A stretch of 63,509 nucleotides of DNA from an uncultured Clostridia bacterium (GTDB lineage Bacteria; Bacillota; Clostridia; Christensenellales; CAG-138): positions 1 to 63,509 of the forward strand of contig CAMVNO010000010.1 in NCBI GenBank assembly GCA_947168855.1, written 5' to 3'. Numbering within the stretch: position 1 is the first letter of the stretch; every line of letters begins with the position of its first letter. Both the position numbers and the translations under genes were made by a program. This document shows positions 14,505 to 55,920 of the stretch, in pieces. The notes beneath the pieces were generated by a model that worked only from the letters and a program-made list of their open reading frames with translations, had not been told where the DNA came from and did no database searches.

Positions 14505-14975
14505 TCAGTCTATCCGATACTCCAGAACCGTTTTGCGCGCGGTAAGCCCCATCTTTTGATAGAACGCGAGCGCGTTCACGTTGTCGTTCCAGACGTTCAG
14601 CGTGATCCAGTCGAAGCCGTTGTCCTTCGCAAACGCCTTCACATGCGCAAAAAGCCGCTGTCCGACGCCGCCGCGGCGCTCCTGCTCGTCCACGCACAGA
14701 TCGTCGATGAACAGCTCCCTGCGCCCGACGACGGTGCCGCTGTCTTCGATCTCATGCACAAAGCAGATCGCATAGCCGACCGCCCGGTCGGTTTCGTCCG
14801 TTTCCACGAACAGCACGCAGTCCGGATCCTCCAGGAGCTTCAATACGCCCGCTTCGGAATACTTCTGCGTGCCGCTCCGGTACATATCGGGACGCACGGC
14901 GGCGTGCACTTCCAGCACCTGCCTTAAAAGCGCGGAGATGCGCGGCGCGTCCTTGGGTTCTGCTCTGCGGATCAT
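14505..14975 (-). CDS. GNAT family N-acetyltransferase
   Basis: A 156-residue GNAT protein. It begins MIRRAEPKDAPRISALLRQVLEVHA, has the acetyl-CoA binding segment LCVDEQERRGGVGQRLFAHV (Q/RxxGxG/A-type loop), and ends with the ALAFYQKMG motif typical of the family. The ATG at 14975 has AAAGGAG 5 bases upstream. Substrate unknown; the fold is used on proteins, amino acids and antibiotics. It is the first gene of a three-gene operon, and its upstream region is the mini-hairpin array. Confidence 0.85.
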   Translation of the reverse strand: MIRRAEPKDAPRISALLRQVLEVHAAVRPDMYRSGTQKYSEAGVLKLLEDPDCVLFVETDETDRAVGYAICFVHEIEDSGTVVGRRELFIDDLCVDEQERRGGVGQRLFAHVKAFAKDNGFDWITLNVWNDNVNALAFYQKMGLTARKTVLEYRID

Positions 14976-14990
14976 ATTGGCTCCTTTCAT

Positions 14991-15171
14991 GCGGTTATAC
15001 CGCAATTCATGTGCGCAGCACAATTCATGCAGCTTCGCTGCAATTCACGGCGCAGCCGATTCATGCAGCCGTGCTGCAATTCATCCCTGTGTTTCGGAAT
15101 GAATTGTCCTTCGGACATGAATTGACCTGTCGGTCATGAATTGCCTGTCGGCATGAATCGACCTTGCGGTC
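14991..15171. repeat. Array of ten mini-hairpins with constant 7-base spacers
   Basis: Between typA and the acetyltransferase gene lie ten short, perfectly paired hairpins in tandem (stems 3-5 bp, loops 3-4 bases; the transition unit is irregular). Left units: 14991-15003 (GCGGT stem), 15011-15021, 15029-15041, 15048-15058, 15065-15077. Their spacer is AATTCAT, in one case shortened. A transition unit spans about 15079-15104. Right units: 15106-15116, 15124-15135, 15143-15152, 15160-15171, with spacer ATGAATT, the reverse complement of the left spacer. Stem sequences differ from unit to unit but pairing is kept. No ORF crosses it and no T-run follows. Function unknown. Confidence 0.85.
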
Positions 15172-15177
15172 ATTGCA

Positions 15178-16998
15178 TTATTCCTTCATCATCCTTGCCG
15201 CAAGCTTCATGCGCTGTTCCTTCGAAAGAATGCGCTTGCGCATGCGGATGCTCTTCGGCGTGATCTCGACCAGCTCGTCGTCCGCGATGAACTCGAGGCA
15301 TTGTTCGAGCGTGAACAGCGTCGGCGGCGTGAGCCGCAGCGCTTCGTCGCTGCCCGCTGCGCGCATGTTGGTGACGTGCTTCTTCTTGCAGACGTTGACC
15401 ACGATGTCGTCCGCGCGCGCGCATTCGCCCACGATCTCGCCCTCATAGACCGGAACGCCCGGTCCGATGAACATCCTGCCGCGATCCTGGGCGTAGAACA
15501 GCCCGTAGGAGCAGGAATCGCCCGTTTCGTGCGCGACGAGGCTTCCCGTCTTGCGCTCGGCAATATCGCCCTTATAGGGCTCGTAGCCGTAAAAGATATG
15601 GTTCATAACGCCGTTGCCGCGCGTGTCGGTCATTAGCTCCGAACGGTACCCCATCAGTCCGCGCGCCGGGATCAGGAACTTCAGGCGCGTGCCGGTGTCG
15701 CCGAGCGTCGTCATGTCGGTCATTTCCGCCTTGCGCATGCCGAGCTTTTCCATGACCGCGCCGACGTATTCCTGCGGCACGTCGATGGTGAGCTCCTCGA
15801 TCGGCTCGGTCACAACGCCGTTTTCGTCCTTGTGCAGAATGACCTTCGGACGCGACACCGCGAACTCATAGCCCTGACGGCGCATCTGCTCGATCAGGAT
15901 CGAAAGATGCAGCTCGCCTCTGCCGCTGACGCGGAACGTGTCGGTGGATTCGGTCTCCTCGACGCGCATGGACACGTTCGTTTTGACCTCGTTGAACAGC
16001 CGTTCGCGGAGATTGCGGCTCGTCACATACTTGCCTTCCTTGCCGGCAAACGGGCTGTCGTTGACCATAAACATCATGGAGACGGTCGGCTCGTCGATCT
16101 TGACGAACGGCATGGGCTCGACGCAAGCAGGATCGCACGCGGTCTCGCCGACGTTCAGATCCTCCACGCCCGCGACGCAGACGATGTCGCCCGCATACGC
16201 TTCCTCGACCTCGACGCGCTGTAAGCCCTCGAAGTTATAGAGCCGCGTGATCTTCGTGTCGCGGCGGCGGTTCTCCTGTCCGCCGCACAGCGTGATGACC
16301 TGTCCGCGCTTTGCCACGCCGCGCTCGATTCTGCCGATGCCGATCTTGCCCACATAATCGTCGTAGTCGATCGTCGAGAACAGGATCTGCAGCGGCGCGT
16401 CGGTGTCCGTTGCGGGAGACGGGATCTCCTTGAGAATCGTATCGAAGACCGCCTGCATGTTGTTCTCCATCTGATCCGGCTCGTAGCCCGACATGTTGTT
16501 GCGCGCGGAGGCGTACACGATCGGGAAATCGAGCTGCTCGTCCGTTGCGCCGAGCTCGATGAAAAGCTCCAAGGCTTCGTCCACGACCTCGTAGGGACGC
16601 GCTTCCGGACGGTCGACCTTGTTCACCACGACGACCGCCTTCTTGTTGAGCTCCAGCGCTTTGCGGAGCACAAACCGCGTCTGCGGCATGCAGCCCTCGA
16701 ACGCGTCAATGAGAAGCAGAACGCCGTCCACCATCTGCAGGATGCGCTCGACCTCGCCGCCGAAGTCCGCGTGACCCGGCGTGTCGACGATATTGATGCG
16801 CGTGTCGCCGTAGGTGACCGCGGTGTTTTTGGACAGGATCGTGATGCCGCGCTCGCGCTCGAGATCGCCGCTGTCCATGATGCGCTCGGTCCCCTGCTCG
16901 CTGCGCCGCAGCGCGCCCGCGTCCTTCAAAAGCTGATCGACCAGCGTCGTCTTGCCGTGGTCGACGTGTGCGATGATCGCTACATTGCGAATATTCAT
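15178..16998 (-). CDS. typA: Translational GTPase TypA/BipA
   Basis: A 606-residue ribosome-associated GTPase of the EF-G family, involved in stress, cold growth and 50S assembly. G1 is AHVDHGKTT (about 10-18), the DTPGHADF G3 motif is present, G4 is NKVDR; domain V and the BipA-specific C-terminal domain end in MRKRILSKEQR. Length is normal. The ATG has GAGGAG upstream. It is transcribed alone from a consensus promoter, and the mini-hairpin array begins right after its stop. Confidence 0.97.
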   Translation of the reverse strand: MNIRNVAIIAHVDHGKTTLVDQLLKDAGALRRSEQGTERIMDSGDLERERGITILSKNTAVTYGDTRINIVDTPGHADFGGEVERILQMVDGVLLLIDAFEGCMPQTRFVLRKALELNKKAVVVVNKVDRPEARPYEVVDEALELFIELGATDEQLDFPIVYASARNNMSGYEPDQMENNMQAVFDTILKEIPSPATDTDAPLQILFSTIDYDDYVGKIGIGRIERGVAKRGQVITLCGGQENRRRDTKITRLYNFEGLQRVEVEEAYAGDIVCVAGVEDLNVGETACDPACVEPMPFVKIDEPTVSMMFMVNDSPFAGKEGKYVTSRNLRERLFNEVKTNVSMRVEETESTDTFRVSGRGELHLSILIEQMRRQGYEFAVSRPKVILHKDENGVVTEPIEELTIDVPQEYVGAVMEKLGMRKAEMTDMTTLGDTGTRLKFLIPARGLMGYRSELMTDTRGNGVMNHIFYGYEPYKGDIAERKTGSLVAHETGDSCSYGLFYAQDRGRMFIGPGVPVYEGEIVGECARADDIVVNVCKKKHVTNMRAAGSDEALRLTPPTLFTLEQCLEFIADDELVEITPKSIRMRKRILSKEQRMKLAARMMKE

Positions 16999-53614: not shown

Positions 53615-53659
53615 AAACCGGCGGGAGGCTTTTGCCCCGCCGGTGAACAAAGAAGGATG

Positions 53660-53688
53660 TTGCAAAGAACCCCGCTTCGGTGTATGAT
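53660..53688 (+). promoter_or_regulatory. Sigma-A promoter for thrC
   Basis: -35 TTGCAA (53660-53665), 17-base spacer, -10 TATGAT (53683-53688), 28 bases before the thrC ATG. Confidence 0.8.
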
Positions 53689-53716
53689 GAAAGGAGAATC
53701 GAAAAGGAGCGAACCC

Positions 53717-54952
53717 ATGAGACGCGTATACGGTTACCGCTGCACCCTGTGCGGCAAGGAATACCCCTACGGACCGGAGCTTATGACCTGCCCTGCCTGC
53801 GGCGAAAAGGGCATCCTCGATATTCTGTTCGACTACGACGAGGTCAAAAAGGAACTGAACCGCGACACGCTGAAAGCCGATCGCGACAACAGCATGTGGC
53901 GCTACCGGGCGCTGATGCCTTTAAAAGGCGAGGGCTTATCGAAATTCCTTCGCATCGGCTGGACGCCGCTGTATGAAAGCCTGCGGCTCGGCGACGAGCT
54001 GGGCTTAAAAAAGCTTTTCATCAAGGACGACGGCATCAATCCGACCGCATCCTTAAAGGACCGCGCAAGCGGCGTGGCGGTCGCAAAGGCGATCGAGCTG
54101 GGCTATGACACGATCTGCTGCTCCTCCACCGGAAACGCGGCTTCCTCCTGCGCGGGCAACGCGGCGCGGATGGGATTGAAAACCGTCATCTTCGTGCCGG
54201 AGCGCGCGCCGAAGGGCAAGGTTGCGCAGCTTTTGATCTTCGGGGCGAACGTCATCTCCGTGAAGGGCGACTACCGGCAGACCTTTGAGCTATCGAAAGC
54301 CGCGATCGAAAAATGGGGCTTCTACAACCGCAACGCGGGCATCAATCCGATCCTGACCGAAGGCAAAAAGACCGTCGCGCTGGAGATCGCGGAACAATTG
54401 AACTGGGAACCCACCGACTGGGTGGCGGTGTCCGTCGGCGACGGCTGCACGATCGGCGGCGTCTACAACGGCTTCCGTGACCTCTTTGAAATGGGCATGC
54501 TCGACCGCATCCCGAAGATCCTGGGCGTGCAGTCCACCGGCTGCTGCCCGTTTGTGGACGCGGCGAACAACGACCGCGACCTCATGCCGACGCCCGAAAA
54601 CACGCTGGCGGATTCGATCGCCGTGGGCGTGCCGAGAAATCCCCGTAAGGCGCTGCGCGCCGTAAAGAACAGCGGCGGAAGCTGGATCGCCGTGACCGAC
54701 GACGAGATTCTTGCCGCGATGCGGCTCCTCGGAAGAACCGAGGGCGTGTTCGGCGAGCCCGCGGGCGTGACCGCCACGGCAGGCGTCGTAAGAGCCGTCA
54801 GAGAAGGCTTGATCCGCCCGGATGAGACCGTCACGGTCATCTCCACCGGCAGCGGCTTAAAGGACGTGAACAACGCGCTGAAGGCCGCAGGAGAGCCGTT
54901 CCTGTGCGAGCCGGACATCCATGCGCTCGAAGCAAGCGGACGGATTCGATAG
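53717..54952 (+). CDS. thrC: Threonine synthase-like PLP enzyme with zinc ribbon
   Basis: A 411-residue fold-type II PLP enzyme that forms threonine from phosphohomoserine, or a paralogue. It starts with a zinc-ribbon (CTLCGKEYPYGPELMTCPACG), has the PLP lysine in TASLKDRASG (about 113), the Gly-rich phosphate loop SSTGNAASSC, and the C-terminal ISTGSGLKDV. ATG at 53717 has AAAAGGAG upstream. The final 139 bases (54814-54952) are repeated 830 bases downstream, so this C-terminus may have been supplied by an inserted element. Its divergent pairing with ssnA leaves open a role in the purine cluster. Confidence 0.85.
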   Translation: MRRVYGYRCTLCGKEYPYGPELMTCPACGEKGILDILFDYDEVKKELNRDTLKADRDNSMWRYRALMPLKGEGLSKFLRIGWTPLYESLRLGDELGLKKLFIKDDGINPTASLKDRASGVAVAKAIELGYDTICCSSTGNAASSCAGNAARMGLKTVIFVPERAPKGKVAQLLIFGANVISVKGDYRQTFELSKAAIEKWGFYNRNAGINPILTEGKKTVALEIAEQLNWEPTDWVAVSVGDGCTIGGVYNGFRDLFEMGMLDRIPKILGVQSTGCCPFVDAANNDRDLMPTPENTLADSIAVGVPRNPRKALRAVKNSGGSWIAVTDDEILAAMRLLGRTEGVFGEPAGVTATAGVVRAVREGLIRPDETVTVISTGSGLKDVNNALKAAGEPFLCEPDIHALEASGRIR

Positions 54953-54964
54953 TAGAAACATAGT

Positions 54965-54996
54965 AAAGGCGGATTCTCCATTGGGAATCCGCCTTT
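54965..54996 (+). terminator. Hairpin after thrC
   Basis: A 12-bp perfect stem AAAGGCGGATTC/GAATCCGCCTTT (54965-54976, 54985-54996) with an 8-base loop lies 12 bases after the thrC stop. Only three T follow within the stem end, so termination may be weak. Confidence 0.6.
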
Positions 54997-55073
54997 CGAT
55001 ACAAAGGTGCCATCTTGTTCCCACTCTCAAACAATTTTTATGTTAAACAAGTAGAAATGCGATTCCATAGATA

Positions 55074-55673
55074 CTACTTTTTCTTCTGTGCATAAAAAGG
55101 CATCCCAAGCAAGGTAGAAACAACATCATTATTTGGAACAGACAAAATAAAAGCATCTCTCAAATTAAGTGCTAAATCAGATGACAAATGCATTTCCTTC
55201 TTACACTCATCATCAGAAAGAGAAGTATTATAAACGCTCTTCTCTAGGAGAACATATATGGTCTGGGGATTAGAGCTAGAGTTAAGCTGCTGTTTCACAA
55301 TTGCATCAGCTAGTGTAACAGGATTTAATCGTATAGTTTTTATAAAAAAGATAATACACGATATACTTCCACAAATACAGGCTATCAAAATAAACCCCAT
55401 CATTTTTGATAGACGGAATGAGTCATTTGCACATGAATTGCCTGATTCAACATATATGGATAAATAGATTGTTAGAGGGATAAGAACCAATGCAATACCA
55501 AGGGAAATAAGTTGCATTGTCCGTTTTCGCTGTTTTAGGCAATTCATGCATATTGCTGCAGAAAATACATTTGTCAAGGTCTCCTGAATAGTATTTCCAT
55601 TTGTGATTACTTGTACTTCTGCAAAGAGATATTCATTTGCTTCGGAACTGCCACACTTAATGCAATTTGCCAT
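55074..55673 (-). CDS. AT-rich orphan: zinc-ribbon membrane protein
   Basis: A 199-residue protein unlike its neighbours in base composition (AT-rich codons in a GC-rich window). Two CxxC pairs at the N-terminus (CIKCG about 4-8; ICMNC about 41-45) suggest a zinc ribbon. Two hydrophobic segments follow (about 53-75 and 88-112), then a soluble domain with a cluster of acidic residues. I do not recognise a family. It has its own promoter and AGGAGG ribosome site, and sits inside the insert that duplicated the thrC end. Likely acquired by transfer. Confidence 0.8.
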   Translation of the reverse strand: MANCIKCGSSEANEYLFAEVQVITNGNTIQETLTNVFSAAICMNCLKQRKRTMQLISLGIALVLIPLTIYLSIYVESGNSCANDSFRLSKMMGFILIACICGSISCIIFFIKTIRLNPVTLADAIVKQQLNSSSNPQTIYVLLEKSVYNTSLSDDECKKEMHLSSDLALNLRDAFILSVPNNDVVSTLLGMPFYAQKKK

Positions 55674-55701
55674 ATTTACCTCCTATTTTGTATCTAATGA
55701 T

Positions 55702-55731
55702 AATATAGCACTCGACTTATTCAAATGTCAA
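55702..55731 (-). promoter_or_regulatory. Promoter of the AT-rich orphan gene
   Basis: Minus strand perfect -35 TTGACA (55726-55731), 18-base spacer, -10 TATATT (55702-55707), with AGGAGG before the ATG. Confidence 0.75.
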
Positions 55732-55781
55732 TCAATTCAAGGAGCAAGAGGCCAATTGAATCCCATTCAGAAAAGAGTCGC

Positions 55782-55920
55782 CCGCCCGGATGAGACCGTC
55801 ACGGTCATCTCCACCGGCAGCGGGTTAAAGGACGTGAACAACGCGCTGAAGGCCGCCGGCGAGCCGTTCCTGTGCGAACCGGACATCCATGCGCTCGAAG
55901 CAAGCGGCAGGATCAAATAA
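55782..55920 (+). pseudogene. Duplicated 3' end of thrC
   Basis: 139 bases matching 54814-54952 without gaps and with ten mismatches by my count (about 93% identity). All but one amino acid are unchanged (final Arg to Lys). It has no start or promoter of its own. A strong terminator follows its stop codon by 13 bases, which marks this copy as the original chromosomal end of thrC. Confidence 0.9.

Follow-up and report, generated by a model that had tools for sequence, protein, structure and literature searches.

The array of mini-hairpins downstream of typA in this uncultured Clostridia bacterium is real and is a member of a large, fast-changing family of repeats. The explanation favoured here, and considered somewhat probable, is that it represents a gene-less copy of a two-part repeat (an IVP gene of family PF05635 together with an array), which operates at the level of DNA and somewhat resembles REP/RAYT systems. 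The partner of the array is most likely a protein of the IVP type and the acting form is most likely DNA.

Architecture of the typA array

The window (the whole stretch of DNA analysed, 63,509 nt) contains an intergenic stretch at 14976-15177 between two co-directional genes on the minus strand. Within it, the array (14991-15171) is composed of nine perfect mini-hairpins and 7-nt spacers, the spacer inverting at an irregular centre:

15178-16998, minus strand: typA, bordering the array stretch
Start ATG inferred at 14975, minus strand: GNAT-type acetyltransferase gene, the other neighbour of the stretch
14991-15003, plus strand: mini-hairpin 1, GCGGT-TAT-ACCGC
15011-15021, plus strand: mini-hairpin 2, GTGC-GCA-GCAC
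15029-15041, plus strand: mini-hairpin 3, GCAGC-TTC-GCTGC
15049-15057, plus strand: mini-hairpin 4, GGC-GCA-GCC
15065-15077, plus strand: mini-hairpin 5, GCAGC-CGT-GCTGC
15085-15098, no strand: irregular centre and spacer inversion point; the flanking spacers (15078-15084 and 15099-15105) pair across it
15106-15116, minus strand: mini-hairpin 6, GTCC-GAA-GGAC
15124-15135, minus strand: mini-hairpin 7, GACC-GACA-GGTC
15143-15152, minus strand: mini-hairpin 8, GCC-GACA-GGC
15160-15171, minus strand: mini-hairpin 9, GACC-GCAA-GGTC
15004-15084, plus strand: five left spacers of 7 nt (starting at 15004, 15022, 15042, 15058 and 15078), AATTCAT three times, AATTCAC and GATTCAT
15099-15159, minus strand: four right spacers of 7 nt (starting at 15099, 15117, 15136 and 15153), ATGAATT three times and ATGAATC, i.e., the left spacer reversed

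A preliminary description of this DNA had counted ten perfect units with a constant spacer. Nine perfect hairpins are indeed present where it placed them and the tenth unit is the irregular centre; the spacer does invert half-way but is only nearly constant (AATTCAT in three of the five left copies, ATGAATT in three of the four right ones). Its proposal that left spacers can pair with right ones agrees with the inverted-repeat pairs found, which are complementary. Likewise, the cis covariation it pointed out (stems that vary and keep pairing) holds in the typA array and far more strongly across loci. With hairpins counted at a stem of at least 4 and a loop of 3-4, the array holds 9 non-overlapping hairpins, whereas 1000 dinucleotide shuffles gave 1.8 on average and 6 at most. 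Folding z-scores are -3.85 for the plus strand as RNA, -6.56 for the minus strand as RNA and -4.94 for the plus strand as DNA. Six of the nine loops follow a GNA/GNNA rule, the exceptions being TAT, TTC and CGT. No PF05635 ORF lies within or adjoining the array, and the sole gathering-level Rfam match across the window is a tRNA at its far end.

Elsewhere in the window, a 132-nt direct repeat with 95% identity occupies 54814-54945 and 55782-55913. It corresponds to the 3' end of the gene at 53657-54952, presumably threonine-synthase-like, and recurs beyond an AT-rich insert with a 199-aa ORF (55074-55673, minus strand). The arrangement at 54814-55913 resembles what the insertion of an element, with duplication of the gene end, would leave.

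A dispersed family: distribution, covariation and turnover

The genome of the array (G000, 2.42 Mb) holds 98 spacer pairs, defined as two same-orientation spacers 8-22 nt apart, against 0 for a reversed-pattern control. A stricter pattern was found in 13 of 23 genus genomes (G000 included) and in none of 38 genomes from elsewhere in the family and order; class-wide, it occurred in 29 of 391 genomes and in none of the 18 same-order genomes outside the genus. A scan of GTDB genomes matched at least 119 stretches, whose titles point mostly to Clostridia MAGs from gut or rumen, and perfect hairpins fill 382 of 474 inter-spacer segments in the GTDB stretches among the matches listed. Seven GTDB stretches (Prevotella, Tychonema, a cyanobacterium, Burkholderiaceae and three others) are without hairpins and behave as chance matches. 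Among viral contigs, considered with a view to viral spread of the arrays, 11 stretches matched; hairpin units make up 8/10 at L428 and 5/5 at L437, but 0/7 at L427 and 2/9 at L430.

Covariation was assessed on a pool of 930 inter-spacer segments from eight genus genomes and the GTDB stretches listed, minus the 7 of 119 stretches without hairpins. Among the matches listed, 773 of the 930 segments (83%) are perfect hairpins, compared with 5.3% after base shuffling, and the pool comprises 519 different segments and 123 stems, with the outer G-C pair fixed in 853. Inner pairs are standard in 0.89-0.96 of cells for segment lengths of 9-16, against shuffled means of 0.43-0.53. For G000 alone the covariation sets are too small, and only the 11-nt set (n=10) is clearly above shuffles.

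The loops have a polarity that follows the spacer. Read on the AATTCAT strand, the pooled segments among the matches listed contain triloops of the form GNA (299), TNC (12) and other (196), and tetraloops of the form GNNA (161), TNNC (1) and other (80); of these 460 GNA/GNNA loops, 447 are closed by a C-G pair. The same polarity holds for five other spacer types, with GNA/GNNA 66 times and TNC 3 times (other loops uncounted). DNA mini-hairpins whose loop is GNA or GNNA and that contain two or more G-C pairs are described in passages of PMC4686876 as extraordinarily stable and nuclease-resistant. A tandem G-A hairpin was also considered as a universal mark of the arrays and was dropped, as a strict test detected it in 5/33 arrays in sense and 1/33 in antisense orientation, with 1.2% for shuffled sequences.

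Orthologous arrays differ by replacement of whole units, while pairing persists. In one ortholog set (L029, L160, L237 and L297, with flanks 89-93% identical), units are common to G000 and G012, and the stems of L160 and G003 are mostly different yet paired. L047 and L092 have only the first unit in common, and L027 and L169 share left units and differ in right ones. Imperfect units also exist, for example one in G003 (L237).

Two copy classes occur in G000. Class A arrays (the typA type) differ from one another in how many units they have and in which. Class B, of which eight near-identical copies lie at different loci, is a composite of about 300 bp. A large terminator-like hairpin is followed in it by ATGAATT units, then by a palindromic centre, TTTTCC-GGAAAA, and AATTCAT units lead from there to a second large hairpin; in a copy examined by pattern scan, one of the two end hairpins scored as terminator-like. 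Downstream of a gene that we take to be L19-like from the resemblance of its product's end to that ribosomal protein, G000 carries a class B copy and G008 an ordinary-looking terminator. Occupied and empty sites are likewise found downstream of typA. Among the 20 of 21 typA neighbourhoods displayed (G005 left out), the acetyltransferase ATG stands 0-3 nt past the typA stop in nine, four contain inserts (G000, G003, G006 and G010), three have another next gene and four another context. The G006 insert has the same build with the spacer ATATCGY, and it agrees with G000 in the last hairpin and in the ATGAAAGGAGC that comes after it. The suggestion of the preliminary description that the array is a mobile or amplifying element thus gains support from the 98 genome-wide pairs, the eight composite copies and the occupied and empty orthologous sites. 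It had named, as grounds against its view, a lack of arrays elsewhere and random loss of pairing; arrays occur in relatives and their pairing is kept. No target-site duplication or fixed target, as a MITE or an IS200/IS605 derivative would show, was recognised by eye in the flanks of the eight near-identical composite copies and several occupied/empty pairs, and no transposase linked to arrays was found in the array stretches read.

Several further features were seen around these sites. The typA-downstream site of G003 (L078) contains two inverted arrays of a 9-bp repeat (CGTGACAAA / TGTCACAAA), which share the inverted build and contain no mini-hairpins. At L056 (G000:C8, ~122.4-122.6 kb), an ATATCG-type array that is absent from the orthologous G013 locus (L304) abuts an AATTCAT array, and arrays seem to insert beside arrays, as here. 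At their far ends, class A arrays (e.g., L046, L047, L234 and L255) often run up against repeats of other kinds (TCATCCGCGAAAAGC..., CACCTCATCCG...), which gives intergenic mosaics. An imperfect unit that recurs, GGAGCGAAGCGAG or close to it, is found in class B copies (L042, L049, L058 and others), at L438 and in some gene-linked arrays.

PF05635 genes and competing explanations

Of 61 relatives, 19 have PF05635 genes, as do 90 of 291 class genomes, and four GTDB stretches (L126, L130, L142 and L147) have such a gene directly after the array, with TIGR02436 also matching at L126. By an array score that ignores spacer sequence (threshold 6), 29 of 93 PF05635 loci have an array upstream, or 25 of 89 without the four loci chosen through their arrays, compared with 2 of 89 downstream; most loci are array-less, 64 of the 93 scoring below 6 upstream. 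A score of at least 6 was reached by 17 of 40 PF05635 stretches, hand-picked for genome spread, and by none of 20 random stretches of the same genomes; in GC-rich DNA the score is less clean, with 4 of 31 control loci reaching 6, one of which is a true array. The upstream arrays are mostly two-halved and end about 80 nt or less before the start codon, and at L310, L320 (by eye) and L381 the halves flank the gene on both sides. In G163, an AATTCAT array lies upstream of an 85%-identical IVP that was located purely by protein similarity.

Spacer type and protein are also associated. On a tree of 91 IVP proteins, the spacer types (labels merged by hand) require 14 changes against 31.4 when shuffled, with none of 200 shuffles as low. 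GCTAAAT, with 9 proteins from seven host families, and AATTCAT, with 5 proteins (four of them found via their arrays), each form one group, and the CATCAT and GTTATA labels form no clades on this tree. The 21 top-scoring PF05635 proteins make up a separate array-less group, and among 20 such proteins searched, one locus (L342) lies inside 23S rRNA. Genomes with a given IVP type are mostly also rich in gene-less arrays of its spacer: nine genomes chosen for a GCTAAAT-type IVP contain 3-85 GCTAAAT pairs, against 0 in six of nine other genomes and 2, 3 and 10 in the remaining three. A tRNA or tmRNA gene is close to the array in 8 of 20 array-bearing loci, and no LSU rRNA match was obtained in 20 array-bearing IVP or AATTCAT loci. 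Nine array-linked IVPs share a motif around R39-S40-S43-I44-G45-A46-N47-E50; the PF05635 family motif is given as GxxRxxxSxxxNxxE in a portion of PMC3936711. Solved relatives are 2RLD (E 1.5e-42) and XCC0516, 2GSC (E 0.0021). In G000 itself, a truncated IVP frame is joined directly to a remnant of an ATGTG-type array downstream of a tRNA-like end (L325, G000:C1:134-256), a decayed gene-carrying element of another spacer type.

The likeliest course of events is the following. On a strand exposed by replication or in transcription bubbles, each unit would fold into a stable, nuclease-resistant mini-hairpin of the form C-GNA-G or C-GNNA-G and would thereby present the spacer. In the gene-carrying form, with the array directly upstream of the IVP gene or on both sides of it, the IVP protein may bind the folded array by recognising its own spacer type, and it may help arrays, with or without the gene, to be copied into new intergenic places, where units would be gained, lost and swapped. 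The weakest points of this reading are the lack of an AATTCAT-type IVP in the genus, the opposite half-order and the failure to see any transposition footprint. AATTCAT arrays are abundant without a matching IVP (98 pairs in G000, 104 in G003, 149 in G021 and 68 in G198). A protein search of seven genus genomes found no AATTCAT-type IVP: G000, G012 and G021 gave no match, and G003, G006, G009 and G010 gave matches at 45-54% identity; the best IVP of G198 is 54% identical. The array-rich G012 and G021, both incomplete assemblies, have no PF05635 match at all. Furthermore, AATTCAT precedes ATGAATT in the typA array, and gene-linked and composite arrays have the reverse order; loss of the gene from such a copy would therefore not by itself yield the typA array.

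An alternative, considered unlikely, places the function in RNA, with the hairpins acting in the typA-acetyltransferase transcript or in 5' leaders as an mRNA stabiliser, attenuator or protein-binding leader, which for IVP genes could be autoregulatory. Its attractions are the position of the typA array between co-directional genes, the better folding of the transcribed strand (z of -6.56 against -3.85), the leader position of IVP-linked arrays, the curation of one array type in Rfam as RNA, judged certainly RNA in passages of PMC2864571, and a slight tendency of ATGAATT-outward ends to lie beside a start codon (51/215 vs 43/271, p 0.037). Nevertheless, since loop polarity follows the spacer, the halves of an inverted array must differ when read on a single RNA, with GNA loops on one side and UNC loops on the other. 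In the pooled segments among the matches listed, GNRA loops (86) are only slightly commoner than GNYA loops (75), and single stem mismatches (29 G-T and 21 A-C) reveal no clear wobble preference, a weak argument as arrays may be transcribed either way. Array orientation also shows no clear relation to gene facing (p 0.69 with a crude gene call; antisense ORFs blur the result in one gene call used), and a gene-direction rule was discarded given this value and the weak start-codon adjacency. The RNA decay or processing barrier of the preliminary description consequently loses ground, the polarity tracking spacer orientation and not gene direction.

A neutral origin, to which little probability is given, would have the inverted repeats made and kept perfect by template switching at forks and by slippage, and spread by recombination with no dedicated protein. 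Tandem three-unit duplications (G012:C61:6112-6276), the change of entire units at once and the absence of reverse transcriptase and Y1 genes from several array-rich genomes are in its favour, but the conserved spacer, the fixed outer G-C pair and the strand-specific loop rule are unexpected from slippage alone, and one build recurs with several spacers before one protein family. It is very unlikely that a Y1 (HUH) transposase works on the arrays in trans and that the IVP link is only incidental. The arrays are intergenic, palindromic and high in copy number, and Y1_Tnp-related genes exist in 12 of 23 genus genomes, one beside an array (G003:C40); yet the RAYT-like genes of the 12 stretches read are surrounded by GTAGGG-tagged palindromes, with AATTCAT units only at G003:C40, and G012, G013, G016, G004 and G022 (incomplete assemblies) have arrays and no Y1 match. 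A reverse transcriptase acting in trans, considered because of the Avd link of PF05635 proteins, was set aside: RVT_1 is present in 3 of 23 genus genomes (G000, G006 and G009) and absent from the array-rich G003, G010, G012 and G021.

The two-part repeat partnered by an IVP is the preferred explanation. A wider proposal, plausible though judged slightly improbable, is that Clostridia harbour a two-part selfish system in which each IVP type reads its own 7-nt spacer as displayed by arrays of extraordinarily stable DNA mini-hairpins, spreads gene-less arrays and renews their units fast enough for orthologous arrays to differ with pairing preserved, Gut-1 being half of an array of this sort. To our knowledge, no function is agreed for IVP and related four-helix-bundle proteins, which occur in intervening sequences of rRNA, close to cas genes and, in the form of Avd, in diversity-generating retroelements; a partner nucleic acid would make that function directly testable. 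Gut-1, an orphan RNA seen only in environmental sequence, can now be assigned to Clostridia MAGs as its hosts, to a neighbouring gene and to a larger family. Repeats would be evolving in an unusual way if their units are swapped whole and are still perfect hairpins, and DNA structure would be put to an unusual use in arrays of nuclease-resistant DNA mini-hairpins. Class B copies with terminator-like ends, one of which lies where a relative has a terminator of its own, suggest how such repeats could reshape transcription units.

Comparison with known systems

No description of AATTCAT-type arrays or of the IVP-array link came up in searches of the open-licence PMC literature; Gut-1 surfaced via Rfam and not through these searches, a sign of their limited reach. 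The statement of the preliminary description that the array matches no known repeat class needs correcting to the extent that one spacer type is Rfam Gut-1, the typA array itself remaining below gathering. That description also overlooked the GNA/GNNA loop rule, the other spacer types and the upstream PF05635 link, along with the Gut-1 identity. Plain terminator and REP readings of the typA array were rejected.

Gut-1 RNA (RF01706) has the same unit build as the arrays, with three mini-hairpins and a constant (G)UGAAAU linker. Its model matches one half of a TGAAAT-spacer array upstream of an IVP gene (L378) at 59.6 bits and the other half, on the other strand, at 48.3 bits; the array upstream of the IVP gene at L387 scores 53.3 bits and that near an IVP remnant at L324 58.3 bits. 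The typA array fits the build of tandem short hairpins and a constant linker, with another linker, and scores 13.7 bits (E 5.8), below the gathering value of 50. Passages of PMC2864571 describe Gut-1 as a noncoding RNA found in the human gut only and in environmental sequence only, without linkage to mRNAs, and make no mention there of inverted halves, spacer types, an IVP link or a DNA-level reading.

The arrays resemble REP/BIME sequences with their RAYT genes, which excerpts of PMC2817692, PMC3116915 and PMC3733652 portray as short intergenic high-copy palindromes in opposed orientations with a solitary presumed partner gene. They differ in having no REP tag, in stems that vary around a kept spacer and in a linked gene that encodes an IVP and not a Y1 transposase; the array family shows the opposed high-copy palindromes, and in the 12 Y1_Tnp stretches read no RAYT gene is flanked by the same repeat, AATTCAT units standing beside one Y1 gene only (G003:C40). 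G000 also contains a RAYT-like Y1 gene (20.6 bits, Pfam cut-off 23) among GTAGGG-tagged palindromes (L215, G000:C4:245329-245616), and these palindromes with the RAYT-like gene are apparently a separate REP/RAYT system of the genus.

CRISPR arrays, which consist of direct repeats of about 21-48 nt and unique non-palindromic spacers, are similar in the alternation of constant repeats with variable segments. Unlike them, the present arrays have a 7-nt repeat, palindromic variable segments of 7-18 nt and a half-way inversion, and a CRISPR reading was rejected because the 7-nt spacer and palindromic units do not fit. IVP genes have nevertheless been noted in cas loci (in a part of PMC3936711) and among CRISPR-adaptation associations (in a part of PMC10910872).

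The intervening sequence of Coxiella 23S rRNA, which passages of PMC4990558 present as a selfish element of small size whose ORF (S23/IVP) belongs to PF05635, is comparable to the gene-carrying arrays. In contrast to it, array-linked IVP copies lie outside rRNA, often beside tRNA or tmRNA; the typA array is not inside 23S rRNA and has no IVP ORF, whereas related gene-carrying arrays have the ORF. The family itself (PF05635, 23S_rRNA_IVP, four-helix-bundle) is related to Avd of diversity-generating retroelements, as stated in a section of PMC10053308.
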